A program made the position numbers and the translations under genes. The notes under the pieces are model-generated. The model was not told where the DNA came from, did not search any database, and worked only from the letters and a program-made list of their open reading frames with translations. DNA of 63,136 bases, from positions 1 to 63,136 of the forward strand of contig JAUMUT010000009.1 of the NCBI GenBank assembly GCA_030530525.1. The letters are read 5' to 3'. Below, piece by piece: positions 5,278 through 63,136 of this stretch. The DNA is from Capnocytophaga sp. (lineage in GTDB: Bacteria; Bacteroidota; Bacteroidia; Flavobacteriales; Flavobacteriaceae). The stretch's first letter is position 1. Every line of letters begins with the position of its first letter.

Positions 5278-8200
5278 ATGTCTAAATTTCATTTATTATT
5301 AGTGTGTGTTTTCCTTAGTTGGAGTAATTTGCAAGCGCAAAACTATTGGAAAAGAGACGGACAAACACGGCGAGCAGTTACCCAAGAAGATGGCAAATAT
5401 CTCTATTACTCGCTGGATAAAAAGGCGTTTAACACGGCTTTACACAACGGAACAGCAAGAAGTGCAAGTAATAAAAGAACGATACAAATTCCTGACGGCG
5501 ATGGCAAATTAGAAACCTTTGAGGTGGAAAAAACCAGAGTGCTTTCCGAAGAATTGGCTCAGAAATATCCTCAGATAGAAACGTATTCGGGGTATTCGGT
5601 TTCCAATCCGTCCAAATCCGTTAGTTTTACGTGGTCGCCTTCGGGGCTTTCCGTTATTTTAGAAGATAATATGAAATATACTTTTATGCAACCTACCAAT
5701 ACCACAGGTGTGCAACATAAAGTATATCACCGAAATACAGAGGTAGAAACAATGGAATTTCGTTGTAATACCAAAGAAGACCTAAAAGCAATGCGAACAG
5801 CAGCACAAAATGCTATGGCTCGCAATACTTTTGAAACTACCAATGTGCTTCGTACCATTCGTATAGCTATTGTTACCACTTCCGATTTTACTGCTCGTTT
5901 TGGAAACAAAGCCAATACAATGGCGCAATTAGTTTCTACCGTACAACGTGCCAACCAAGTGTATCGCGCACAAATGTCTATTCAGTTTGAATTAGTTTCT
6001 ACCGAAGATCTTATTTTGGATAACCGAAATACAGACCCTTTCCGAAGAAATTTTAATATGAACTGGAACGGAAGTATTCTTCAAGAATTTTTAGATAAAA
6101 ACTTAGGTACAGAAAAATACGATGTAGGGCACGTGTTCCATCATACCGCACAACCATCAGGGAATGCAGGCTGTATAGGTTGTATCTGCGATGCGAAAAA
6201 TAAAGGTAGAGCGTTCTCGGCGGGGAATATCCGCGAGAATATGGATATGGATTTGTTTGATATTGATTTCTTCTGCCACGAGCTTGGGCATCAAATGGGC
6301 GCAAACCATACGCATAACTTGCAAGATGAGCGTTCTGGCGTACAAATTGAGCCTGGTAGTGGTTCTACCATTATGGGTTATGCGGGTATTACAGGTGCCA
6401 ATGACGTTCAATCGCGCACCGACCCTTATTTTAATCACATTAGTGTAAAACAAATAATGGAGCATATTTCTGCTCAAAGTTGCCCTAAAACGGAAGAAAT
6501 TTCTAATACTCCTCCGCAAATAGGCGAACTAAAAAACTACACCATTCCGCGCGGAACGGCTTATGTGCTTAATAGTTCTGCCACAGATACCGATGGCGAT
6601 GAACTTTCCTATATGTGGGAGCAGGAAGATGCTTCGGGTAGCATTACGGCTAGTGCTTTTTCGTCCAACAATCCTGACGGACCAATGACGCGTTCTCTTC
6701 CGCCTTCCAAATCCACAGAACGTTATATTCCGCGTATGTCGCAAATCCTAAAAGGGAAATTAACCGAAAGAACTCCTAACAAAAGTGATGCGTGGGAAAC
6801 CGTTTCTACCATAAAACGAAAACTCACTTGGGCTTTTGTAGCTATGGATAGAAAAATAGGAAATAGAGCCAACCGAGCTACCGACAAAAATGCAGGACAC
6901 ACCAGTTATGCTCTTGCCGAAATAAATGTTGTTACCGATGCTGGGCCTTTTGTGGTAACTTCTCAACAAGAAAAAACGTATTGGTTTATAAATCAGCCCC
7001 AAACCATCAAATGGGACGTAGCAAATACCGACAAAGGAGAAGTGAATGTACAAACTGTTACTATTTATTTTTCAAAAGATGATGGACAGAATTTTTCTAC
7101 TACCTTAGCAGAAAATATTCCTAATAACGGAACGTATTCTTTTACTCCATCAGCAGATTATACCACCGAGAAAGGTCGTTTTATGATAAAAGCCGATGGA
7201 AATATTTTCTTAGCCGTAAATGCTGGGCAAATTGTCGTAAAACAAGATGAAGACTCCGACGGCGATGGTATTCTGGATAGTAAAGATAATTGTATGTTTG
7301 TCGCAAACCCTGACCAAGCCGATTTTGATAACGACGGCATAGGCGATGTTTGTGATGACGATAAAGATGGAGACAATGTAAGAGATAGTTATGACAATTG
7401 TCCTGATATTCCAAATACAGATCAAAAAGATACCGATGGCGACGGCAAAGGAGATGTTTGTGATGACGATATAGACGGCGATGGCATTCCAAACGCACAA
7501 GATAATTGCCCTACCAAATACAATCCTGACCAAAAAGATACCGATAACGACGGAATTGGCGATATTTGTAGTGGAGATATGGATAATGACAAAGTAATTG
7601 ACGAAAACGATAATTGTCCTCAAACCTATAACCCCGACCAAAAAGATACCGATGGCGACGGAATTGGTGATGTCTGCGATGATGATTTGGACGGCGATGG
7701 CATTCCGAATACGCAAGATAATTGTCCTGAGATTTCAAATCCTGACCAAATAGACACCGATGGCGATGGCAAAGGCGATGCCTGCGATGACGATATTGAT
7801 GCCGATGGTATTCCAAATACAGAAGATAATTGCCCTTACGTACAAAATATTGACCAAGCCGATTTAGATGGCGATGGCATAGGCGATGCCTGTGATGACG
7901 ATTGGGACGGGGATGGTATTATTAACCGAAAAGATAATTGCCCTTACATTTATAATCCTGACCAAAAAGATACCGACAGAGATGGCATAGGCGATGTTTG
8001 TGATGATGATTTGGACGGCGATGGCATAGCAAATACCGATGACAACGAATCGGATACGGTTCTCATTCCTAACGCTTTCTCTCCTAACGGCGATGGTATT
8101 AATGATACATTCTTTATCCACAGAGTACTTCTTTATCCTAAAAATACCTTACAAATATTTAGCCGAGACGGAAGGCTTGTTTATGAGGCAAGAGGATATA

Positions 8201-32034: not shown

Positions 32035-33903
32035 ATGAGAAAAATAAACTTATTTTTAATCGTTATTGGGGCTTTTTTGTTAGTACAATGTTATAAAATA
32101 GCAGGAACACAGAACAAAAATAAACCTAATAAAGAAACTACAACGAAGAATAAAATAGTTGTATATCAGATTTTTACAAGATTGTTCGGGAATAAAAACA
32201 CCAACAACATTCCGTGGGGAACAAAAGAACAAAACGGCGTAGGGAAGCTCAATGATATTACCGATACCGCTTTGCAAGAGATCAAAAAGCTTGGTGTTAC
32301 GCACGTTTGGTATACTGGGGTGCCTCATCACGCTTTGGTGGGCGATTATAAACACATTGGCATCTCTGATGACGACCCCGAAGTGGTTAAAGGGCGTGCT
32401 GGCTCTCCTTATGCCGTTAAAGATTATTACAACATTAACCCCGACTTGGCCGTTAATCCCATTCATAGGCTTGCAGAGTACGAACAACTTATACAACGTA
32501 CTCACCAGAACGGATTACAAGTGATAATGGATATTGTACCGAACCATATTGCTAGAAAATATGAAAGTATTTCTGCTCCAAAAGGTGTTATTGGTTTCGG
32601 GCAAGAGGATAATACTTCAGTGGAGTTTGATGTGGATAATAATTTCTATTATGTGCCTAATCAATCGTTTGTATTGCCTACATATGAGAATGGTTATCAG
32701 CCATTGGGAGGCGATACACATTCCCTTATAGATGGTATGTTTAATGAAAATCCTGCTAAATGGACAGGGAACGGCGCAAGAAGTCCGCAACCGAAGTTTG
32801 ATGATTGGTATGAGACTGTTAAGCTAAACTTTGGTGTTTCTCCTGATGGGAAAAAAGAATTTCCATCCTTGCCAAAAGAGTTAGAAAAGGCTTCTTTTGA
32901 AGCTCATTATCAATTTTGGAAAGATAAAAAAGTGCCAAATACTTGGTTGAAGTTCAAGGAAATAGCTTTGTATTGGTTGGATAAAGGTGTAGATGGTTTT
33001 CGGTACGATATGGCAGAGATGGTGTCTGTGGAGTTTTGGAGTTATTTAAATTCTGCTATAAAAATGAAGAATCCGAAAGCATTTTTGCTCGCTGAAATAT
33101 ACAATCCGAAGGCTTATAGAGATTATATTTACCAAGGAAAGATGGATTATTTATATGATAAAGTACAATTGTATGACACATTACGAAATATTGTACAACA
33201 TCATCATTCTACAGATGGTATAGTCCCTGTTCAGGAAGATTTGCAAGACATTTCTTCGCATATGCTTCATTTTTTAGAGAACCACGATGAGCAACGTATT
33301 GCTTCACCCGAATTTGCAGGCATACCAGAAAACGCATTGCCCGCTATGGTAGTTTCTCATACCATTTCAGATGCTCCTACGATGATTTACTTCGGGCAAG
33401 AAGTGGGAGAGAAAGGCGCAGAGAAGGGAGGCTTCGGAAGTCCTTCGCGCACATCTATTTTTGATTACGTTGGAGTTCCTGCACATCAGCAATGGATGAA
33501 CAATGGGAAGTTTGATGGTGGTCAATTGTCGCATTCGCAAAAAGAATTAAGACGTTACTATCAGAAGTTGTTAAATATAGATGTACAAGGAACGTATAAA
33601 GATATACATTTGTACAATCGTAAAAGCACTTCGGGCTATACGGATAAGATTTATTCTTTTGTAAGAGGAGAAAAAGAAGGTAATAAATACGTGATAGTAA
33701 GTAATTTTTCCCCTTCGGAGAGTTTTACTTTCTCTTTACAAATACCAGAAAGCGTGGTGAAAGATTGGCAACTATCGGAAGGTAATTATACCCTAACGGA
33801 TAAACTTTTTGGTAGTAGTTCTTCTCTTCTGATAAAGGATAAAAAAGGAACAATAAAGATGAAACTAAACCCATTAGAATCTTTTATTTATGAAATACAA
33901 TAA
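32035..33903 (+). CDS. GH13 alpha-amylase lipoprotein
   Basis: A 622-residue GH13 lipoprotein with lipobox LVQC (Cys19). The catalytic residues are Asp325 (GFRYDMAEM), Glu354 (LAEIYNP) and Asp418 (LENHDEQR). The barrel starts at IVVYQIFTRLFGNKN and includes MDIVPNHIARKY (conserved region I). It would be the SusG counterpart that opens starch at the cell surface. However, the residues after the lipidated Cys (YKIAGTQNKNK) lack acidic residues, so the Capnocytophaga-type surface-export signal is not evident and a periplasmic face cannot be excluded. It ends the maltose locus and is followed by an exceptional terminator. Confidence 0.92.
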   Translation: MRKINLFLIVIGAFLLVQCYKIAGTQNKNKPNKETTTKNKIVVYQIFTRLFGNKNTNNIPWGTKEQNGVGKLNDITDTALQEIKKLGVTHVWYTGVPHHALVGDYKHIGISDDDPEVVKGRAGSPYAVKDYYNINPDLAVNPIHRLAEYEQLIQRTHQNGLQVIMDIVPNHIARKYESISAPKGVIGFGQEDNTSVEFDVDNNFYYVPNQSFVLPTYENGYQPLGGDTHSLIDGMFNENPAKWTGNGARSPQPKFDDWYETVKLNFGVSPDGKKEFPSLPKELEKASFEAHYQFWKDKKVPNTWLKFKEIALYWLDKGVDGFRYDMAEMVSVEFWSYLNSAIKMKNPKAFLLAEIYNPKAYRDYIYQGKMDYLYDKVQLYDTLRNIVQHHHSTDGIVPVQEDLQDISSHMLHFLENHDEQRIASPEFAGIPENALPAMVVSHTISDAPTMIYFGQEVGEKGAEKGGFGSPSRTSIFDYVGVPAHQQWMNNGKFDGGQLSHSQKELRRYYQKLLNIDVQGTYKDIHLYNRKSTSGYTDKIYSFVRGEKEGNKYVIVSNFSPSESFTFSLQIPESVVKDWQLSEGNYTLTDKLFGSSSSLLIKDKKGTIKMKLNPLESFIYEIQ

Positions 33904-33954: not shown

Positions 33955-34015
33955 ACGTTTTATAAGTTTTTACATAATAGTATATATTATTAAAAACTTA
34001 TAAAACGTTTTTTTT
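33955..34015 (+). terminator. Very long nested-hairpin terminator
   Basis: A perfect 18-bp stem (33955-33972, ACGTTTTATAAGTTTTTA, with its complement at 33991-34008) encloses an 18-nt loop that itself forms a 6-bp stem (ATAATA 33974-33979 with TATTAT 33985-33990). A run of eight T starts at 34008. It ends the GH13 transcript; a 21-bp repeat array begins directly behind it. Confidence 0.9.
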
Positions 34016-34044: not shown

Positions 34045-34296
34045 ATATTTTTAGAATATATTAGTTAGTCAAAATAATATTTTAATAAGTCATAAAGATA
34101 TATTAGTAAAACAAATAAATATATGAATAAGTCATTAGTTGATATTAGTAGGTTATTATTATGTTTGTGTTGGTCATTAGAAGATATTGATAAGTCATTG
34201 TGAGATATTAGTAAGTTGTCATAAGATATGAATTAGTCAAATATAGATTTTAGTTAGTCATTATAAAATATGAGTAGAATATTATAAAATATAGAA
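34045..34296 (+). repeat. Degenerate AT-rich array of twelve 21-bp units
   Basis: Unit starts fall exactly every 21 bp from 34045 to 34276 without any insertion or deletion. The consensus is roughly (A/T)AG-TCA-TTA-nnn-GAT-ATT-AGT. Read in the one plus-strand frame set by the units, most copies give heptads such as KSLVDIS, WSLEDID, KSL-stop-DIS, KLS-stop-DMN and stop-SL-stop-NMS, with L/I at positions 3 and 6. About nine in-frame stops show it is not translated now. A further weak unit may lie at 34024-34044. It fills the gap between two convergent terminators; there is no other gene in 33904-34423. Confidence 0.8.
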
Positions 34297-34345
34297 AATA
34301 TTTCTTTGTATATAAAAAGAAGTTTTTTAAATATAAATGAAATAT

Positions 34346-34381
34346 ATAAAAGAAAAGAGGACGTTTATTAATGCCCTCTTT
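34346..34381 (-). terminator. Terminator of the N-glycan locus
   Basis: On the minus strand AAAGAGGGC (34381-34373) pairs with GTCCTCTTT (34362-34354) with one G-U pair, followed by a T-rich tract. It lies 43 bp behind the GH18 gene. Confidence 0.75.
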
Positions 34382-34423
34382 CCATTAACTAACAATGGAT
34401 TAAAAAAATATACAATTTAGGTT

Positions 34424-35824
34424 TTAGTTATCTTTTGGTCCTTTATGATATTTTCCGTTGAATATCGTTTCTTCGCCATAAAATAACATTGTTGCTTTAC
34501 TTAAATTCGTAGCAGTAGAGCCGTCTTTTATATGTTCGCCATTGATGTTGAATATCATTAGCATTCCAAAGCAATTTTCAAGATTATGATTAGCGAAATA
34601 ATCTGCATACGACATAGACCAACCCCAATTAGCCTCAATAGAGAATGATCCATAGCGTTCATCAGGTATATCAGAAAAAGATCCGTGATTTTCGTTGTAA
34701 TTAGCCCAACTATAATCTACATAATCAGATACGTGTTTGCCAAGTTCATCTACGCTATCTCTTTGTAAGCCGTGATCATAGTCATAAAGAGTTAAGAGTT
34801 TGTCAGGCATTACTTCCTTCATAGCACGCATAAACCAGAATACAGATTGGCTACCTTTTCGAGGCTTGGAAGGGAGTTTGTAGTACTCGGCATATTCTTC
34901 GTCAATGTCATAGCCATCTAAGCCCAATTTATCTGCCCATATTTTACATTCGGTAGCAAATTCGCGCGCCTCTTCGTAGTTTTGGAAGTTGAAATAACCT
35001 ACTCCTTGGTGGTTAGGAAGGATAGTAGCTAAAACTTTTATTCCTCTGTCTTTCAGTGGCTTAATGTACTTATCAGGATCATTAACAATAGGTTGTAGTT
35101 TTTCGTTAAAGAAAAGCGTTCTTTTACCTGTTTGTGTATTGTAATTCATATTCGGAGCGAAAAGAATAACTATATCAAAGACAGGTTTTTTGCTATCTTT
35201 CAGGATAAATTGTCCCATATTGCGGATATCCCAGTCGTTAGTCTCTACGTAAGCTACCATCTTCATTGGCTCAGTACGATTGTTGCAAGAATAGGTTGCA
35301 GGAGGCATAGGCTTTTTAGAAGTTTCCGTAATGGGGCTATATTCACTATCTTTGTTAAGTATAACTAAGTGAAACATTTCTTGCCCTGCCATTGTAACCT
35401 TTAAAGGGAGCAAATAATCGCCATATGCAAGAGAAGAAAAATTCTTGATGGTTAATTTTGCTTCTGCTTGGGTGTCTCCTGCGTTATAGGTGTTCCCTTC
35501 GAAGGAATAATAATTATTTGGCAAGAGAGAGAAGTCTTTTACTCCTTTAAAAGTGTTGTAATTATTCACAATTTTAGCCATTTCGGTAGTATTCAAGAGA
35601 ATGTTTCCGCTTTCTGAGGCTGCTTTTCCTATTTTGGCAACGAATGTATATTCGCCATCGTTGGCTAATCTTGTAATTTCTTCGGTTGGTTTTTCTTTAT
35701 AATAAAAAGAACTTTCTTGAAAGGTAGAAGTATTATTCTGTGGCTGAGTGAGTTCCAGCTTTTCTTTCTCACAACCCAAAAGGAAGGCGCAGAGAACACT
35801 TGCTATAATATATTTTGTTTTCAT
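34424..35824 (-). CDS. GH18 endo-beta-N-acetylglucosaminidase lipoprotein (GpdG-like)
   Basis: A 466-residue lipoprotein; lipobox LLGC (Cys18) followed by EKEKLE, a good surface-export signal. Residues 45-160 look like a DUF1735 (BT_3987-like) domain. The rest is a GH18 barrel with the full active-site motif DGYDIDEE at residues 303-310, giving the catalytic acid Glu310. Enzymes of this kind cleave the chitobiose core of N-linked glycans. It is the last gene of a SusC-SusD-lipoprotein-lipoprotein-GH18 operon, the order I recall for the Gpd locus of Capnocytophaga canimorsus, where the GH18 enzyme (GpdG) deglycosylates host glycoproteins. Substrate by analogy only. Confidence 0.88.
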   Translation of the reverse strand: MKTKYIIASVLCAFLLGCEKEKLELTQPQNNTSTFQESSFYYKEKPTEEITRLANDGEYTFVAKIGKAASESGNILLNTTEMAKIVNNYNTFKGVKDFSLLPNNYYSFEGNTYNAGDTQAEAKLTIKNFSSLAYGDYLLPLKVTMAGQEMFHLVILNKDSEYSPITETSKKPMPPATYSCNNRTEPMKMVAYVETNDWDIRNMGQFILKDSKKPVFDIVILFAPNMNYNTQTGKRTLFFNEKLQPIVNDPDKYIKPLKDRGIKVLATILPNHQGVGYFNFQNYEEAREFATECKIWADKLGLDGYDIDEEYAEYYKLPSKPRKGSQSVFWFMRAMKEVMPDKLLTLYDYDHGLQRDSVDELGKHVSDYVDYSWANYNENHGSFSDIPDERYGSFSIEANWGWSMSYADYFANHNLENCFGMLMIFNINGEHIKDGSTATNLSKATMLFYGEETIFNGKYHKGPKDN

Positions 35825-35830
35825 AAGTAA

Positions 35831-37024
35831 TTAATTTTCAATAGTAACATCGGTAGATTCGTCGTGAATAGAAATTTCTAAACGAGATTTATCTTTTTGT
35901 TTTTTCAAGATAAGAGGTCTTCCATTGCCAGAGGCATCAGGAATTTGATTATTTTTCACTTCATTCATTTTCCAATATGCATAAAGCCCTGTGGAAGTTT
36001 CCGAAGTTTTGTACATACTTTCTTTTATTTGAGCACCTGAACGTGCTACTGACCAAAGGCGAAGCTCGCTGAAACGCGCCACGATACCACGATTGTCGTT
36101 ATAACTTCTTCCGATGAAAAACTCGCCCAAGCTACCTCCTTTGTTAAATTCGCCTACTTTTTCGCCGTTGATGTAGCCGTAGCATTTATTGCCTTCTACC
36201 ACAAAAGCCACGTGATACCATTTGTCGGTTTTTAGGCTAACAGGCAATTCTGTTCCTTGTCCGTTGGGTTGTATTCTGTCAGGGAGGTTACCGTGGTCGC
36301 CAAAACGGAGTAGCGTATGGCCTTCTGTACCCATAAAAGTAGAAATTTTGGCATTGCCAGGGTCGTCATCACTACGGAATTTTTGTACATTGATAAGCCC
36401 TTCCAGAGTAAATGTAGTTCCTATATCGCTTACATTGGAATTGTTTTTGTCAATTTCAAAATATTGGTCGCGAGTGATGGCAAATGTTTTTCGTATGCCT
36501 TCTTTGGTAATTTTCATTCCTACCAAAAGGGTTTTATTATCTTCTATAATGCTTATATTATTTCCGATAGAAGTGATTCTAAGAGCAAACATATAAGGCG
36601 TATTTTCTTGCAAATCAGAAGCGATTTGTATTTTTGCGCTAGCTTCTTTGGAAGAAATGTCGCCTGCTTTTATTTCTAAAGAATTGGTAAAAGAGATATA
36701 TTTTTCAGGGAGAATTTGATAAGACTCGCCGTAAGTGGAGTTATATTTTTCTACCTGAGAATTATCCAAAGCCAAAGCAATGTTTATGTTTTGGTTATTT
36801 TCTTTGATTAGTTGTACTTGGTATTTTATTTCTTTTTCTGAGCCAACATCATCAGAGGTTACAGAAAGAGCCACAGGCGAATAAAAACTAACCGCTTTAT
36901 TATCTATTTTTTCTATAAAAGAAGCCGTTTGTTCCATTTTTTCGCCTCCTTGTACATCTTCTTCGGGGGCACAGGCTACTCCAAGAGTAAGGAGCGTTCC
37001 TAATAGGAAATATGATTTGTTCAT
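35831..37024 (-). CDS. DUF1735 plus LamG/concanavalin-like lipoprotein (GpdF-like)
   Basis: A 397-residue lipoprotein: lipobox VACA-type with Cys18 in GVACAPEEDV; the acidic cluster after Cys resembles the surface-export signal but lacks the Lys. Residues 40-165 resemble DUF1735 (ENNQNINIALALDNSQVEKYNSTYG type). Residues 180-385 form a LamG/concanavalin A-like jelly roll, with the family pieces FTLEGLINVQKF, WYHVAFVVEGNKCYGYINGEKVGEF and FSELRLWSVARS. No catalytic motif is present, so a glycan-binding role within the N-glycan complex is likely. It lies 6 bp upstream of the GH18 gene and 4 bp after the preceding one. Confidence 0.82.
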   Translation of the reverse strand: MNKSYFLLGTLLTLGVACAPEEDVQGGEKMEQTASFIEKIDNKAVSFYSPVALSVTSDDVGSEKEIKYQVQLIKENNQNINIALALDNSQVEKYNSTYGESYQILPEKYISFTNSLEIKAGDISSKEASAKIQIASDLQENTPYMFALRITSIGNNISIIEDNKTLLVGMKITKEGIRKTFAITRDQYFEIDKNNSNVSDIGTTFTLEGLINVQKFRSDDDPGNAKISTFMGTEGHTLLRFGDHGNLPDRIQPNGQGTELPVSLKTDKWYHVAFVVEGNKCYGYINGEKVGEFNKGGSLGEFFIGRSYNDNRGIVARFSELRLWSVARSGAQIKESMYKTSETSTGLYAYWKMNEVKNNQIPDASGNGRPLILKKQKDKSRLEISIHDESTDVTIEN

Positions 37025-37028
37025 AACT

Positions 37029-38072
37029 TTATTTTTTTGCTTGTAGTTTGTTAATAATGCTTCGGAGATTTTTGTACGTATTTTTTCCTGCGAGATTATG
37101 GAAATCTTTTTCTATGTGGTACAAGGCAACTCCTTTTTTGTTAGAGGCTGTCCAGTAGAGAAGTCCCGTAGTTCGTGGATATTTTCCGTTTTTGCCATCA
37201 GGGTCAAAGGCGGTACTATCAGAAAATCCGTCAATGAGTGTTTCTTCGGAAAAATCGGTAGAAGGTAAAAATCTACTAAGTGTGAATTTTTGTGCCAAGT
37301 CTGAAAAACTTTTGTATAGTTCATTATTTTTTTTGTAATAAACTATCCAATCGGCAGCATCAATGGGTTTAACATCTGAGGTAAAACCACGTTCGCCGTA
37401 AGGATTTTCAACAACTAAAAGCAAATTTCCTTTATTAGCAACTATATTAGCGAGCATACCATTGAAATTTTCTTCATTAAAAGGGTCTTTAAGCACCATA
37501 GGAAATTCAATACTTATGCCATTAAAGCCATTATTTTTTGCTATTTGAAGAATATTTTCTCCTTGTTTGGCAATATTTTCTTTGGCAATAGCCGAAAGCC
37601 TTTCGGTGATTTCAGAAATAGCAGCATTAATTTGTTTTTCTTTCTCTTCGGGAGTTGTTAAATTTTTGTTAGCTTCTATTTCCTTTTGTTTATTTGCTAT
37701 TTCGGTTTCTTTTTGCGTTTCGTATGCTTTGGCAATAGCGTCCATATTTAGCCCAACGAGCACTTTGGTTGCTTTTTTCTGTTGTACGGCTTGTAGGTCA
37801 TTTTTTTGTGTTTCCGAAATATTTTCATAACTATCTTTTAGTACGATAACGTCCAAACTATCGGGAGTACGCATCAGGAAGCTACCTGTTTCATTCGTCC
37901 AATTATATAACATTCCCATCGTGATATTTCTGTTATGTAAATTGGCTTTGTATTGCGTAAGTGCTTGTGTATCTATTTCTCTCTGAGGAACAGAAATTTC
38001 TATCGGTTCTACTTTGTAACACGCAGAGGCGGTAAGGAGAGAAATGCCGAGTATTATTTTTTTTGTATACAT
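37029..38072 (-). CDS. Catalytically dead GH18-like lipoprotein (GpdE-like)
   Basis: A 347-residue lipoprotein with lipobox TASAC (Cys18), followed by YKVEPIE. The fold of the second half resembles GH18: NNGFNGISIEFPM aligns with the DxxDxDxE strand, but the four acidic positions read Asn184, Ser187, Glu189 and Pro191, so the catalytic acid is gone. Residues 95-165 are a charged helical segment with heptad character (KEKQINAAISEITERLSAIAKENI). Such dead GH18-fold proteins in Bacteroidota glycan loci act as surface glycan-binding proteins. It lies between the SusD gene (44-bp gap) and the LamG lipoprotein. Confidence 0.78.
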   Translation of the reverse strand: MYTKKIILGISLLTASACYKVEPIEISVPQREIDTQALTQYKANLHNRNITMGMLYNWTNETGSFLMRTPDSLDVIVLKDSYENISETQKNDLQAVQQKKATKVLVGLNMDAIAKAYETQKETEIANKQKEIEANKNLTTPEEKEKQINAAISEITERLSAIAKENIAKQGENILQIAKNNGFNGISIEFPMVLKDPFNEENFNGMLANIVANKGNLLLVVENPYGERGFTSDVKPIDAADWIVYYKKNNELYKSFSDLAQKFTLSRFLPSTDFSEETLIDGFSDSTAFDPDGKNGKYPRTTGLLYWTASNKKGVALYHIEKDFHNLAGKNTYKNLRSIINKLQAKK

Positions 38073-38116
38073 AATTTATTTTTTGATTGGAAAGATAAAT
38101 TTTGTTTATCAATGAA

Positions 38117-39679
38117 TTATTTTTTTACCCACCAAAGGTCGGTAGCGCCATTATCTGCTCCGTTTAAATATCCGATAGCGATGTTTTTGTAGGTGGGGTT
38201 TTGGGTGGTTTCTTTGGAAGAGAACGGAAGTCTTCGCATTGCGCCTTTGTCTTTTCCGTTTTCTCGGGTAATGTTCGCCACGATGCCACCGCTTTTGTTG
38301 TCTATAATAGGCATAAGATTTGGGTAACCTGTTCGTCTCCATTCTGCCCACGCTTCTTGTGCGCCATAAGGGAACATAGCTATCCATTTTTGAGTGATGA
38401 TTCGTGCCAATTGCTTTTCTTTGTCATTACCAGCATCTGCCCAACTAACAGAAATAGGAGAGGAGAAGGTAGTGTTGTAAGCAGTTTGTTTCTCATCTGT
38501 GAAGTTGCCTCGTGTGTTGGTGTTGGTTAAATATTGGTCAGCACCAGAAGCTCCCCATTGTTCAAAGGATAATGTAACTCCTTGTTTATAAAGGTCTTCG
38601 GCTGTTTCAGAGATAAAACTCCAACCCTTCAAAGCGGCTTCGGCTTTAAGGAAAGCAACTTCGGCAGCGGTAATCCAATAAATATCGGAATCGGTTTTCA
38701 AATTTGGCATAGAATAATTAGAAAACGCAGGTTGCGAAATACTTTTGTCAGACACTCCTGAGCGTAGCCCAAAGAAAGTATTACCACTTCGGCTGGTAAC
38801 GGAAGTAAGCATTTTTTCACGACGAGGATCAGAAAAGGCGTTCATATATTCTACAAAATCTGCTCCTGCACAAGAATTTACCCAAGTGGTAGAAACCTTA
38901 AAGGCTGGGTTGTCATTCGTTTTTAATTTGGCATTATCAGCATTGGAAGTAATAACACCGTTACTGATGGCGTACTGGGCGTATTCTTTGGCTTTTTCTT
39001 CATTAACATCAGACATACGAATGGCTATTCTTAACAGAAGAGAATTGGCGTATTTTGTCCATTTGGTCATATCGCCTTCATAAACTATATCATAATCCCG
39101 ATATTGTCGGTCATCTGCGGAAATCGTTTTAATTACCTCAATAGAAGATTTTAAATCTTCACAGAGTTGTATATACAAATCGGATTGTTTGTCGTAAGGA
39201 ACTTGTTGTTTTCCTTGTTCCATTTGAGAGTAAGGAAGTGGTCCGTAAGAGTCTGTAATCCAATGTGTAATAGCCACTCTTAGGATAGTTCCCCACGCAA
39301 AGAAAGGCTTGCTAATATCGTCTTTGGCATTTCTTTTTAAGTTAAAATAAGGTAAATAAATTTTTGGATAAGTATCATCAAAAATATAATCTACCCAAGC
39401 TGTACGAGGGTTGTATCCTGCATAATCTTCTTGAAACCTTTGTATTTGTGCGCCATATCCGGATAGTGGAGTTGCAGGAAGGTCAAAACACATTTGGTAA
39501 GAATTTTCTTGTTGCGGTACTACTAATTTTTGTAGCGACAGAAGATCTTGCCCTCCTACGGGTATTCGTTCTAATTCTTTATCTGTTATACCATAAGTGC
39601 TTTTGTTCATTTCGGCAAAATCTTTGGTACAACTTGCCCCAGCTAATAGGGCTATTATTGGTATAATAAATTTTTTCAT
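38117..39679 (-). CDS. SusD-like lipoprotein of the N-glycan locus (GpdD-like)
   Basis: A 520-residue SusD/RagB-family (SusD-like_2 branch) lipoprotein; lipobox AGASC (Cys17) followed by TKDFAEMNK, with Lys-Asp matching the surface-export signal. Family motifs include FFAWGTILRVAITHWITDSYGPLPYSQ (about residues 128-154), WTKYANSLLLRIAIRMSDV, and near the C-terminus LARIITQKWIAMFPYGAQEAWAEWRRTGYP. It would form the lid of the SusC transporter encoded 10 bp upstream and bind released N-glycans. Confidence 0.93.
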   Translation of the reverse strand: MKKFIIPIIALLAGASCTKDFAEMNKSTYGITDKELERIPVGGQDLLSLQKLVVPQQENSYQMCFDLPATPLSGYGAQIQRFQEDYAGYNPRTAWVDYIFDDTYPKIYLPYFNLKRNAKDDISKPFFAWGTILRVAITHWITDSYGPLPYSQMEQGKQQVPYDKQSDLYIQLCEDLKSSIEVIKTISADDRQYRDYDIVYEGDMTKWTKYANSLLLRIAIRMSDVNEEKAKEYAQYAISNGVITSNADNAKLKTNDNPAFKVSTTWVNSCAGADFVEYMNAFSDPRREKMLTSVTSRSGNTFFGLRSGVSDKSISQPAFSNYSMPNLKTDSDIYWITAAEVAFLKAEAALKGWSFISETAEDLYKQGVTLSFEQWGASGADQYLTNTNTRGNFTDEKQTAYNTTFSSPISVSWADAGNDKEKQLARIITQKWIAMFPYGAQEAWAEWRRTGYPNLMPIIDNKSGGIVANITRENGKDKGAMRRLPFSSKETTQNPTYKNIAIGYLNGADNGATDLWWVKK

Positions 39680-39689
39680 TTTTTTCTAT

Positions 39690-42600
39690 TTAAAAATTAG
39701 CTTTAATGTTAATACCAAAACTTCTTAAACTTGGCATCATAAAATAATCTAATCCTTGTGCATAATTTCCTGTGGAAGAAACTGCTTCGGGGTCAAAAGG
39801 AGCTTTAGCATAAATCATTAACAAATTACGACCTACCAAAGAAAGCGTTAAATCCATATGATTATTAAGTAATTTGCGAGGTAATTTATAAGAAATATAT
39901 GCTTCTTGCAAACGGAAATTGGTAGCAGAGTAAGTATAATATTGAGGAACTAAGCCTTTTCCGCGAGCAGTGTAGTATTTTTCGGGGTCAATTTTAGTTC
40001 CGTTGTCAAAAACTCCGCCAGCATTACGAGCATCGGCAGAGGCTTTGGAAACACCAAAATTATCCAACGCACCTTGCGTCATAGAAACTACAATTCCGCC
40101 TATGCGCCCTGCAATCATTGCTCCAATATTGAAGTTTCCGATAGAAAAATCGTTGCGCCAACCCAAGTTATAATCAGGCAATACGCTACCCAATTTTTTA
40201 TAATCAGAAACATTTTGGAAGTCGTCAATATTAACATTTCCGTTGGCATCGGTCATTATATTTCCATCGGCATCTCTTCGGAAATCGTTTTTGGTATATA
40301 CATCGCCAAGCGTTCCGCCTGTTCTAAGTAGGTAAGTAAGCCCTCCGAGTCCGCCTTTTTCTAAATAATCTTTATCATAAGTGCGCCCTGTGGTAGGGTC
40401 TATTTCATTTTCAATGAGTTTCATTATTTTGTTTTGGTTGTAACTCATTGTAAAATAGCTATTCCAGTGTATTTTTTCAGATATTTTCATATCATATCCT
40501 AAGCCAATTTCATATCCTCGGTTACGAACATCTCCCGTTTGTGCGTAAGAGCCTGTATGGCCCGAAGAAGCAGAGCTTTTCACGAAAATAGTTTGGTTGT
40601 ACGTATTGGTTTGGTATATGGTAGCATCTAAGGTTAATTTTCCTTTAAGCCATTTGGTAGCCAAACCTACTTCGTAAGAGTCTGTTCTTTCAGGATAAAG
40701 TTGCCCTATCGGGAAATGTGATTCTGGTTTCCAAGTTTTGGAATTATTATCAAATTTATAGGTAGGAGAAGTTAAACCTCTTTGGAAAGGCGAACCAACA
40801 GAACTGAAAGCCAAACGAACTTTCATAAACGAAAGTACAGGATTCCATTTTGTTTTTGTTTCCGTAGAAATCATATCTGTAACTACCGTAGAAAGCCCCA
40901 CAGAAGGGTAAAAGAATGATTTTTGAGGAGAATTGGCAAGTTGCGAAGCCCAGTCGTTTCTTCCTGTTAAGGTAAGGTATAACCAACTATTATAGCCAAC
41001 TTCTACGCTACCAAAAATAGATTGGGTTTGTTCTATATAACCTGTTTGCGAGCCGTATGTTTTTTTTCCGCCATTTTCAATTTGGAAATAATTAAAAACA
41101 TTGGGTATCCCAGAGGGAAGAAGCCCGCCTTGGTAGTAAGAATCATCATAACGAACATCTTGCAAAGAAGCACCAATATTGGCAGTTAGAGAGAAACGCC
41201 CTACATTTTCCCAATTCAAATATCTGGTAAGGTTAGTAAGTACGTCCAAATACGTTTGTCGTTCTATTCCATTCCCCAATTTGAAGAATCCTGTTGGGCT
41301 CATATCCAAAGTAGATAGAGTAGAAGCATAACGTTTGTCGGTATCTGTAAAGTGAGTGTTATCGGTACGTACGCGTGCTGCAATGTCCCATTTTTCGGTG
41401 TCAGACCATTTTTTCAAATCATAAGAAATTCCTAAGGACATTATATTTCGTTCTCTTTTCATTTCTCGTAAATTACGATACGCTACCCAATAAGGGTTTT
41501 GTAGTGAATATTCCTTAGAAAAATCACCAGAGAAGGTTCCGTCTGCACCAGCAGCTAAGTCGCCCCAATTTTGTTCATAAATATGTTTATCAGGGTTGTA
41601 TTTTTCAAAACGTCTTGCTCTGGAAAGTCCATAACCACGAGGCATCAGGTAAGCACCAACTAATGGGTTCATATATTCCCCTTGGTTTATCATATTCATA
41701 TGATTTTGAATAATATAACTTGCAGAAGCATCTATTCGTAATCGGTCATTAAGCAAGTGCGAAGTGTTTCTTAGGTTAAAATTGTATCGGTTATAAGAGT
41801 TATTTGGAATAATGCCCACTCCATTGGTAGAAGCAGCAGAAAAGTAAGTTTGATTTTTCTCTGAACCACCAGAAACGGATAGAGAATTGTTCAACGTGTA
41901 TGCCGTTTGGAAAAAATCTCTAACATTGTATTTTTCCGCTCCCTCAGGAAGTTTTCTTCCCCACGAAGTAACGCGCCCATCACTTCCGTAAGTATTCTGC
42001 ATCTCTGGGAGAATGAAAGGACTTCCTACCTCCGTACCAGAAGAAAAAGCTACGCTTAACTTGCCTTCTTTACCTTTTTTGGTAGTAATTAAAATAGCTC
42101 CGTTTGCCGCTGCCGAACCATAAAGAGCCGCTGCCGAAGCCCCTGTAAGTACCGTCATACTCTCAATATCTTCTGGGTTTATATCCGCAATACCTTCGGT
42201 AGAACCACCAGAGCTAAATTGCCCTTCTCCTTGTGAGTGGCTAAGAGAAAGCATTGGCACGCCATCTATTACGTATAGGGCATTATTACTTTTTTCAATA
42301 GATTTTTGCCCTCGCATTACCACTTTGGTAGCTCCACCAATTCCTGAAGAACTTCGGTTGATAGTTACCCCAGCTACTTTACCGCTTAATGAATTGATAA
42401 AGTTAGCGTCTTTCACTTTGGTTAATTCTGCGGAATTGACCTGTTGTACATTGTAACTCAATGCTTTTTCTTCCCGTTTGATACCCAAAGCCGTAACAAC
42501 AACTTCGCCAAGTTGTTGAGTTTGTTCTTTGAGTACAATGTTGATAACCAACGGATTACCACTTCCTGTGAGTTTTTTCTCTTGGGAAGAAAAACCAATA

Positions 42601-42821
42601 GAGCTATACACAAGTACTTCGCCCGTATTGGCTTCCATTTGGTATTTACCATCAAAATCCGTAGAAGTACCACGCGAAGTGCCTTTAATTATTACACTTA
42701 CGCCAGGTAGCCCTAAGCCGTCTGCGTCAGTAACTTTACCGGTTACTGTTTTTTTCTGTGCCAACAATATGCCACTGCACATCATAAAAAATAGCATCAG
42801 AAAACTAATTTTCTTATTCAT
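39690..42821 (-). CDS. SusC-like TonB-dependent transporter of the N-glycan locus (GpdC-like)
   Basis: A 1043-residue outer-membrane transporter. Signal peptide to LLAQ (residue 21); carboxypeptidase-regulatory-like domain (VTGKVTDADGLGLPGVSVIIKGTSRGTSTD); TonB-box region EVVVTALGIKREEKALSYNVQ; plug with SLSGKVAGVTINRSS, VVMRGQKSI, DIESMTVLTGASAAALYGSAAANGAI; then the barrel ending in INIKANF. It is the first gene of a five-gene operon with SusD, two binding lipoproteins and a GH18 endoglycosidase. It would import the glycan released from host glycoproteins. Confidence 0.94.
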   Translation of the reverse strand: MNKKISFLMLFFMMCSGILLAQKKTVTGKVTDADGLGLPGVSVIIKGTSRGTSTDFDGKYQMEANTGEVLVYSSIGFSSQEKKLTGSGNPLVINIVLKEQTQQLGEVVVTALGIKREEKALSYNVQQVNSAELTKVKDANFINSLSGKVAGVTINRSSSGIGGATKVVMRGQKSIEKSNNALYVIDGVPMLSLSHSQGEGQFSSGGSTEGIADINPEDIESMTVLTGASAAALYGSAAANGAILITTKKGKEGKLSVAFSSGTEVGSPFILPEMQNTYGSDGRVTSWGRKLPEGAEKYNVRDFFQTAYTLNNSLSVSGGSEKNQTYFSAASTNGVGIIPNNSYNRYNFNLRNTSHLLNDRLRIDASASYIIQNHMNMINQGEYMNPLVGAYLMPRGYGLSRARRFEKYNPDKHIYEQNWGDLAAGADGTFSGDFSKEYSLQNPYWVAYRNLREMKRERNIMSLGISYDLKKWSDTEKWDIAARVRTDNTHFTDTDKRYASTLSTLDMSPTGFFKLGNGIERQTYLDVLTNLTRYLNWENVGRFSLTANIGASLQDVRYDDSYYQGGLLPSGIPNVFNYFQIENGGKKTYGSQTGYIEQTQSIFGSVEVGYNSWLYLTLTGRNDWASQLANSPQKSFFYPSVGLSTVVTDMISTETKTKWNPVLSFMKVRLAFSSVGSPFQRGLTSPTYKFDNNSKTWKPESHFPIGQLYPERTDSYEVGLATKWLKGKLTLDATIYQTNTYNQTIFVKSSASSGHTGSYAQTGDVRNRGYEIGLGYDMKISEKIHWNSYFTMSYNQNKIMKLIENEIDPTTGRTYDKDYLEKGGLGGLTYLLRTGGTLGDVYTKNDFRRDADGNIMTDANGNVNIDDFQNVSDYKKLGSVLPDYNLGWRNDFSIGNFNIGAMIAGRIGGIVVSMTQGALDNFGVSKASADARNAGGVFDNGTKIDPEKYYTARGKGLVPQYYTYSATNFRLQEAYISYKLPRKLLNNHMDLTLSLVGRNLLMIYAKAPFDPEAVSSTGNYAQGLDYFMMPSLRSFGINIKANF

Positions 42822-56136: not shown

Positions 56137-56223
56137 ATCAAATTATATTTAAGAATTATTTTTAATAGATTTTATTTGTTTTATTGGATAATATAGATGG
56201 AATACAATAGATTAAAAATTTTT

Positions 56224-56433
56224 TAGCTATAAAAATATATTTTAAATTATATCTAAAATATTTTTTAGTTGCAATAATAGATTGTGAATTATATCTAAAA
56301 TATTTTTTATCTATAAGAATTAGCAAGAAATTATATATAAAATAATTTTAAGTTATAAAAATAGGTTAGAAATTATACATAAAATATTTTTTAGGTTATT
56401 TATATTAACAAAAATAATAGCTAATAATAAAAA
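56224..56433 (-). repeat. Degenerate AT-rich array, 42-bp (2 x 21) period
   Basis: AATTATA(T/C)(C/A)TAAAATA recurs at 56245, 56287, 56329 and 56371, exactly 42 bp apart, with a second, more diverged 21-bp half after each. On the minus strand, one frame gives alternating heptads: KNILCII, KIILYII, KNILDII, KNILDII and, between them, variants such as SNLFL-stop-L and HNLLLQL; FLLLAII precedes them at 56433-56413. The KNILDII heptad resembles KSLVDIS of the 34-kb array, and here too the array begins at the T-run of a nested-hairpin terminator. Several stops exclude translation. The rest of the gap to 56137 is AT-rich without recognisable content. Confidence 0.75.
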
Positions 56434-62884: not shown

Positions 62885-62925
62885 TTTTTAGTTTATTTTA
62901 TATAGAATAATTAATAATTATAAAA

Positions 62926-63136
62926 CCTCCCCCTTTCCCCCTCCAAAGGGGGATTTTTTTATTTTTACCATTTTATTTGTTATAAGCATACGAATAATTT
63001 ATAAAACACTCCTCCTTTTACCCTCCAAAGGGGGATTTTTTTTATTTTTACCATTTTATTTGTTATAAGCATACGAATAATTTATAAAACCTCCCCCTTT
63101 CCCCCTCCAAAGGGGGATTTTTTTATTTTTACCATT
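62926..63136 (+). repeat. Tandem 82-bp repeats carrying the G/C-run palindrome, right edge
   Basis: CCAAAGGGGGATT occurs at 62943, 63025 and 63107, exactly 82 bp apart. Each unit includes the C-rich/G-rich hairpin, a T-run, TACCATTTTATTTGTTATA and AGCATACGAATAATTTATAA. The middle copy has base changes in its C-run; copies one and three are identical across the core. The array runs off the end of the window. The reverse complement of its core is found at 1-120. Confidence 0.88.
62929..62960 (+). terminator. Terminator formed by the first right-hand repeat copy
   Basis: CCCCCTTT (62929-62936) pairs with AAAGGGGG (62945-62952) around an 8-nt loop, followed by ATTTTTTT. This genomic repeat thus supplies the terminator of the GH2 gene. 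Confidence 0.8.

Follow-up and report, generated by a model that had tools for sequence, protein, structure and literature searches.

Between two convergent genes of a Capnocytophaga genome lie 252 bp that can be read as twelve 21-bp units in a row. This locus raises the questions of what kind of element it is, and of what holds its period constant. The window analyzed here is the whole stretch of 63,136 nucleotides that contains the array; its genome (G000; 2.29 Mb, 76 contigs) belongs to the genus Capnocytophaga. The best reading of the array is as a member of a dispersed family of noncoding minisatellites that occurs in Capnocytophaga and in at least one other genus of the Flavobacteriaceae.

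The array and its neighbours

The features of the window are the following.

32035..33903, + strand: alpha-amylase (GH13) family gene, upstream of the array (PF00128, 1.3e-23)
33955..34015, + strand: terminator-like hairpin with an 18-bp stem (33955-34008) and then a T-run, behind the amylase-family gene and just before the array (-22.0 kcal/mol, z -6.0, 0/200 shuffles as good)
34045..34296, no strand assigned: array of 12 AT-rich 21-bp units, consensus AAGTCATTATAAGATATTAGT (autocorrelation, shuffles, TRF, leave-one-out scoring)
34352..34383, - strand: terminator-like hairpin that follows the convergent gene and flanks the array on its other side (-14.7 kcal/mol, z -3.9, 0/200 shuffles as good)
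34424..35824, - strand: convergent gene, last of a SusC/SusD-type locus, with a BT_3987-like N-terminal domain and an EndoS-type TIM barrel match below the cut-off (Pfam)
56213..56394, no strand assigned: second noncoding array with another unit, period 42/84, without a 21-bp sub-period (TRF, lag analysis)

An earlier note on this DNA had described a 21-bp period kept over 252 bp without an indel. This was borne out, as the 12 units align gap-free. Identity within the array (A+T 0.81) is 0.589 at lag 21 versus 0.353 in dinucleotide shuffles (z 7.7), stays between 0.58 and 0.65 at lags 21, 42, 63, 84, 105 and 126, and is at background at lags 20 (0.33) and 22 (0.27). The highest z at any lag in 2000 dinucleotide shuffles was 4.6, compared to 7.9 (lag 42) and 7.7 (lag 21) in the array; the period, which the note had set against shuffled DNA, lies far above it. 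Lags 7 and 14 are at background identity, and no 7-bp sub-period was found in the array. When each unit was scored by a model built from the others, 8/12 exceeded the shuffled threshold individually, so four of the units are weak; all seven spacings among the former were multiples of 21. TRF recovers the array only piecewise (34055-34150 and 34260-34302). The array is a real, noncoding 21-bp array.

Both convergent genes end in terminator-like hairpins, so that the array occupies space beyond both of them; the hairpins were found by folding against 200 shuffles, and a simple terminator scan listed neither. The nearest orthologue of the amylase-family gene shares 71% protein identity with it. 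Elsewhere in the genus, the amylase locus of G003 is identical to that of C. canis CcD38 over 4788 bp, and that of G011 to C. periodontitidis p1a2 over 4734 bp. The SusC/SusD-type locus (34424-42821) contains two BT_3987-like N-terminal domains, a Laminin_G_3 domain and the EndoS-type TIM barrel match below the Pfam cut-off, and it possibly serves N-glycan use. Further repeats of the window, as listed by TRF, are an 83-bp tandem repeat with CCTCCCCCTTTCCCCCTCCAAAGGGGG (2.8 copies, 62913-63136, running to the window end) and a 108-bp repeat (5.9 copies, 7396-8027) with an Asp/Gly-rich coding look by eye.

Several element classes were considered for the array and set aside. Its units are contiguous and have no unique spacers, as opposed to a CRISPR array. 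Its five neighbouring genes are the amylase-family gene and the SusC/D-type locus, with no replication initiator as would accompany a plasmid-type iteron array. A structured RNA element was rejected: two Rfam matches lay below the gathering score, neither of them within the array, and the array has no unusually stable fold (z -0.63 and +1.35). A head-to-tail minisatellite dispersed in intergenic DNA is what the array and its relatives amount to.

Distribution, placement and noncoding periods

GTCA-type arrays were found by pattern search at six places or more in G000, three of them contig ends; long arrays may therefore have broken the assembly. The places are as follows.

C56:65979-66190: related array
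C25:10061-10197: related array
Window 34045-34296: array described above
C14:9632-9676: contig end inside an array
C39:1-77: contig end inside an array
C49:1-117: contig end inside an array

A two-copy pattern with a 21-bp step gave 26 matches in this genome, and the reversed pattern two. Of 34 pairs of AGTCA followed by RGTCA at steps of 13-29 bp, 20 have a step of exactly 21, a single pair has 20 and no pair has 22. Five of the 20 stand alone and could be due to chance; with the reversed control pattern, 26 matches were obtained over all steps. Several distinct unit families can occur together within one genome.

Three RGTCA motifs at 21-bp steps are present in 13/20 Capnocytophaga genomes, a mixed set in which G007, G008 and G013 have 7-bp-based repeats by eye and the single matches in G010, G014 and G016 could be coding or due to chance. 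The same triple at 20-bp steps was found in 0/20 genomes and at 22-bp steps in 1/20 (G008); the reversed control matched in 4/20 (G007, G008, G011, G018) at 21-bp steps and in two (G001, G004) at 22. Across the wider family the triple pattern occurs in 19/149 genomes, two of these Capnocytophaga, and the listed matches include many 7-bp repeats as well as matches to the reversed pattern. G100, from a second genus of the Flavobacteriaceae, has two long arrays between convergent genes, one with 19 GACTTCGGGGTGAGGAGATAT units and the other with at least 23 units of GGAGTCAGAAAAGTCAAGTGC type, neither with an indel:

L278:1710-2109: long 21-bp array of G100
L279:900-1413: long 21-bp array of G100

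Other 21-bp units were listed for G053, G083 and G119; these may be coding. A literature search (titles, open-licence PMC) returned no paper about 21-bp arrays in Capnocytophaga.

The arrays are mostly located at the 3' ends of genes. Among 25 with two neighbours, 11 lie between convergent, 13 between tandem and one between divergent genes; a 26th is at a contig edge. With orthologous loci counted once, by a grouping of our own, 7/21 are convergent versus 11/104 long gaps (p 0.013), and 1/21 divergent versus 28/104 (p 0.043). As the arrays were partly found by pattern, this bias is a lean and not a law.

In noncoding DNA, lag spectra have maxima at 21, 42 and 84 for samples of G000 and of G005 and G006 combined, which were partly picked because arrays lay there, and also in a sample of G019, which was not; the latter has further peaks at 126 and 187. 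G002 gave little signal, G008 gave 21 and 42 beside 22, 33, 14 and 44, and G010 gave 22, 33, 44 and 14. In 77 loci from other genomes, nearly all Bacteroidota, no peak at 21, 42 or 84 was seen. Tandem repeat periods were then tallied from TRF in stretches not selected for arrays, that is, omitting the window array and five stretches of its own genome chosen for arrays (overlapping rows merged with the best score kept; noncoding defined by a crude longest-ORF mask). For G000, G002 and G019 together, 4/16 periods were exact multiples of 21 (P 0.006) and 8/16 were within one base of one (P 0.0008). For five genomes the exact count was 7/37 (P 0.0016) and the near count 18/37, including six 22-bp arrays; for other genomes the counts were 0/4 and 1/4. 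The quantization of noncoding periods in multiples of 21 is real, not exclusive, and the exact enrichment is moderate. Besides the second array of the window at 56213, arrays with period 42 or 84 and no 21-bp sub-period were found in G006 (L239) and G019 (L189).

Register and turnover

Register was scored in 14 arrays out of 27 with leave-one-out units, a flank of 210 bp on each side being scanned in all registers. Here 155/158 spacings were multiples of 21 over an estimated ~697 substitutions; the three others (141, 176 and 106) are all isolated outlying matches. Six arrays added later (contig ends, orthologous duplicates and G014) gave 27/28 over ~165 substitutions, the exception being a step of 44 in G014, where TRF reports 6% indels. 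The remaining seven of the 27 either repeat mainly at 42 or 84 or are ragged, as is L240:14469-14736 of G006; the G006 array behind the amylase gene contains at least one slip of 1 bp. Pooled over 20 arrays from two genera, independently scored units lie a multiple of 21 apart in 182/186 spacings. This count leans towards register, since the array boundaries were drawn by eye around in-register stretches and several of the arrays are homologous to one another. At an indel:substitution ratio of 0.05, the low end for bacteria in general and not a value from these genomes, dozens of slips would be expected.

Comparison of orthologous loci shows how the arrays change: they acquire, lose and replace units in whole 21-bp blocks, their sequence evolves rapidly, and the register seldom slips. 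At locus A, beside an HlyD-like gene (named by eye), four genomes (G002, G003, G004, G005) are 97-99% alike next to the array. With G002 as the reference, G005 shows two gaps (42 and 21 bp), G004 a single one (21 bp) and G003 none. At locus B, G005 has one gap of 21 bp and G003 again none. Gaps of 1 to 3 bp between these near relatives all lie outside the arrays at both loci. The gene beside the locus B array starts with a 21-bp in-frame repeat of Asn/Gln-rich heptads by eye (L245:4019-4087), a coding neighbour of a noncoding array.

At locus D one orthologous spacer between convergent genes contains three different units, all of them 21 bp. G005 has units of GGTCAGAATTCATTTCCTGCT type there, G019 has units of GTTGCTAATTCATTTCTGCAA type, and in G006 two units alternate. 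The units of G005 and G019 may be related, judging from the AATTCATTTC that they have in common. Five other orthologues have a short spacer and no array, and the locus is cut by a contig end in G000. Behind the amylase gene, spacers of more than 450 bp are present in 4/20 orthologues (G000, G005, G006, G016); the first three contain arrays of differing sequence with periods in multiples of 21, and G016 has a weak 62/63-bp signal only. At locus C, G006 has an array upstream of a conserved gene, and no clear counterpart was seen in nine other orthologues examined (of 17 genomes matched), which indicates that arrays come and go.

At loci A and B, and at locus D in G005 by a single unit, the GTCA arrays are organized around an ACCGGT centre, from which the units face away and across which they remain in register. 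Where outer units have decayed, they still keep one register around this centre, and the inverted decayed units at locus A do likewise. Off-register matches near the threshold in this analysis include L101:1420, L261:1110 and L271:1024. In G019 at locus D the GTCA unit model finds no row.

Explanations for the constant period

The earlier note had read one frame as heptads close to K-S-L-x-D-I-S with about nine stops, and had suggested the recent decay of a coding repeat. Nine stops are present in that frame; x, however, is itself a stop in the consensus (K-S-L-stop-D-I-S, by eye), and the stop is thus not a later lesion. The suggested decay is contradicted by this consensus stop, by 3 to 16 stops in every one of the six frames, so that none is open, and by column conservation without a period-3 signal (0/13 arrays below 0.05, Fisher p 0.52). 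The array also sits between two open genes. Its origin as the remnant of a coiled-coil heptad repeat is therefore highly improbable, even though 21 bp are seven codons and some arrays in other genomes have open frames; such frames are expected of a 21-bp unit that has no stop in one frame, and the 'heptad' is simply 21 divided by 3. Phased bent DNA, a curved segment that would act by shape alone, was the role for which the note had proposed a curvature prediction. A unit of two helical turns would let any bend add up, and the array is rich in A+T, but a proxy for a full curvature model, computed for 20 arrays, gave no excess phased at 10.5 bp of A-tracts or AA/TT/AT steps over column-permuted units (1/20 arrays below p 0.05, Fisher p 0.12). 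W/S power at 10.5 bp in the same comparison gave nothing, and a 10.5-bp periodicity of column conservation nothing firm (Fisher p 0.089); bending alone is very unlikely to account for the period. We also regard as improbable that the arrays are minisatellite cores of a mobile MITE with conserved ends, spread by transposition in the manner of BrickBuilt of Porphyromonas gingivalis. In the part of its description used here, BrickBuilt is a minisatellite/MITE with 19 dispersed intergenic copies in one strain, head-to-tail units without spacers, one 23-bp unit sequence, and inverted-repeat leader and tail ends (PMC4596501). The arrays resemble it in being dispersed, intergenic, of the Bacteroidota, and made of head-to-tail units of similar size; they differ from what that part describes in a unit of 21 bp, in many unit sequences and in flanks with nothing found in common. 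Between the flanks of 11 arrays no shared leader or tail was detected, the best between-locus result being a single 15-bp match (E 7e-4), and the loci compared yielded no clean pair of filled and empty sites.

Two readings of the register then have to be weighed. It is quite possible that ancient 21-bp arrays spread and then evolved as neutral satellites, in which in-register unequal exchange or slippage inserts and deletes whole units; any unit carrying an indel would misalign and be lost, and the period would persist without a function. Consistent with this are the fact that near relatives differ in length by whole units and have their units scrambled, the higher-order 42- and 84-bp repeats, the variable presence of arrays between species, and their scarcity in divergent, promoter-bearing spaces (1/21 versus 28/104, p 0.04), where extra DNA would be costly. 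On the other hand, units that are only ~0.6 identical should resist homogenization, yet they do not slip; the decayed inverted units at locus A are still in register; and at locus D the unit sequence turns over and the length does not. The reading we prefer by a narrow margin, although we hold it to be slightly short of probable, is selection for a two-turn register that would provide a row of docking sites on the same face for a putative architectural protein at the 3' ends of genes. As 21 bp correspond to two turns of B-DNA, every unit lies on one face of the helix, and the register would be kept for this reason. An abundant architectural DNA-binding protein could then occupy successive units in a row, meeting the same face each time; at gene 3' ends, its binding could keep transcription units apart or constrain supercoils. 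Selection on length or phase, as the earlier note had it, is supported by the 21- and 42-bp gaps, the pooled spacings and the one spacer with different 21-bp units, and is not proven by them; what is conserved is the length of the unit and not its sequence. The preference of the GTCA-type cores for 21-bp steps, the indel-free arrays of G100 and the register kept across ACCGGT centres speak for this reading as well. Several unit families in one genome argue against a single sequence-specific protein, and it counts against the selection reading that in-register turnover alone would also remove slipped units. The slips in some arrays, the moderate enrichment of exact multiples of 21 and the absence of a firm 10.5-bp signal in A-tracts or column conservation weigh against it too. 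As a whole, the fuller proposition of a satellite system that conserves helical register instead of sequence, with phased 21-bp arrays at gene 3' ends as docking sites for a putative architectural protein and units that drift while the two-turn spacing holds, is rather doubtful.

Intergenic repeats of bacteria usually take their names from their sequence. In these arrays the sequence is replaced from one sister species to the next while the two-turn period persists, both at an orthologous site and in two genera. Should selection maintain the register, the arrays would be a readout of a chromosome-organizing protein in a group with little-known nucleoid biology; otherwise, they would offer a clean bacterial model of how satellites evolve by in-register exchange. 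Eukaryotic satellites, alpha satellite among them, combine a fixed monomer length with fast sequence turnover and higher-order repeats. All three traits recur here, although the arrays are bacterial, have 21-bp units and are a few hundred bp long. Plasmid iterons are direct repeats about two helical turns apart that are read by a protein on one face; the present arrays differ in having no replication gene among the neighbours tested, many chromosomal places and an unconserved unit sequence. The heptanucleotide tandem repeats (STRR) of cyanobacteria are degenerate noncoding tandem repeats, a trait shared with the arrays; the window array differs in its missing 7-bp sub-period. Heptameric repeats are, by its title, the subject of PMC4692102. 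G013 and other Flavobacteriaceae contain RGTCANN heptamers, and 3 x 7 is 21. Many noncoding arrays of 11-, 22- and 7-bp units were seen in other Capnocytophaga species, namely G010 (L219-L238) and G008 (L199-L218); 11 bp are about one helical turn.
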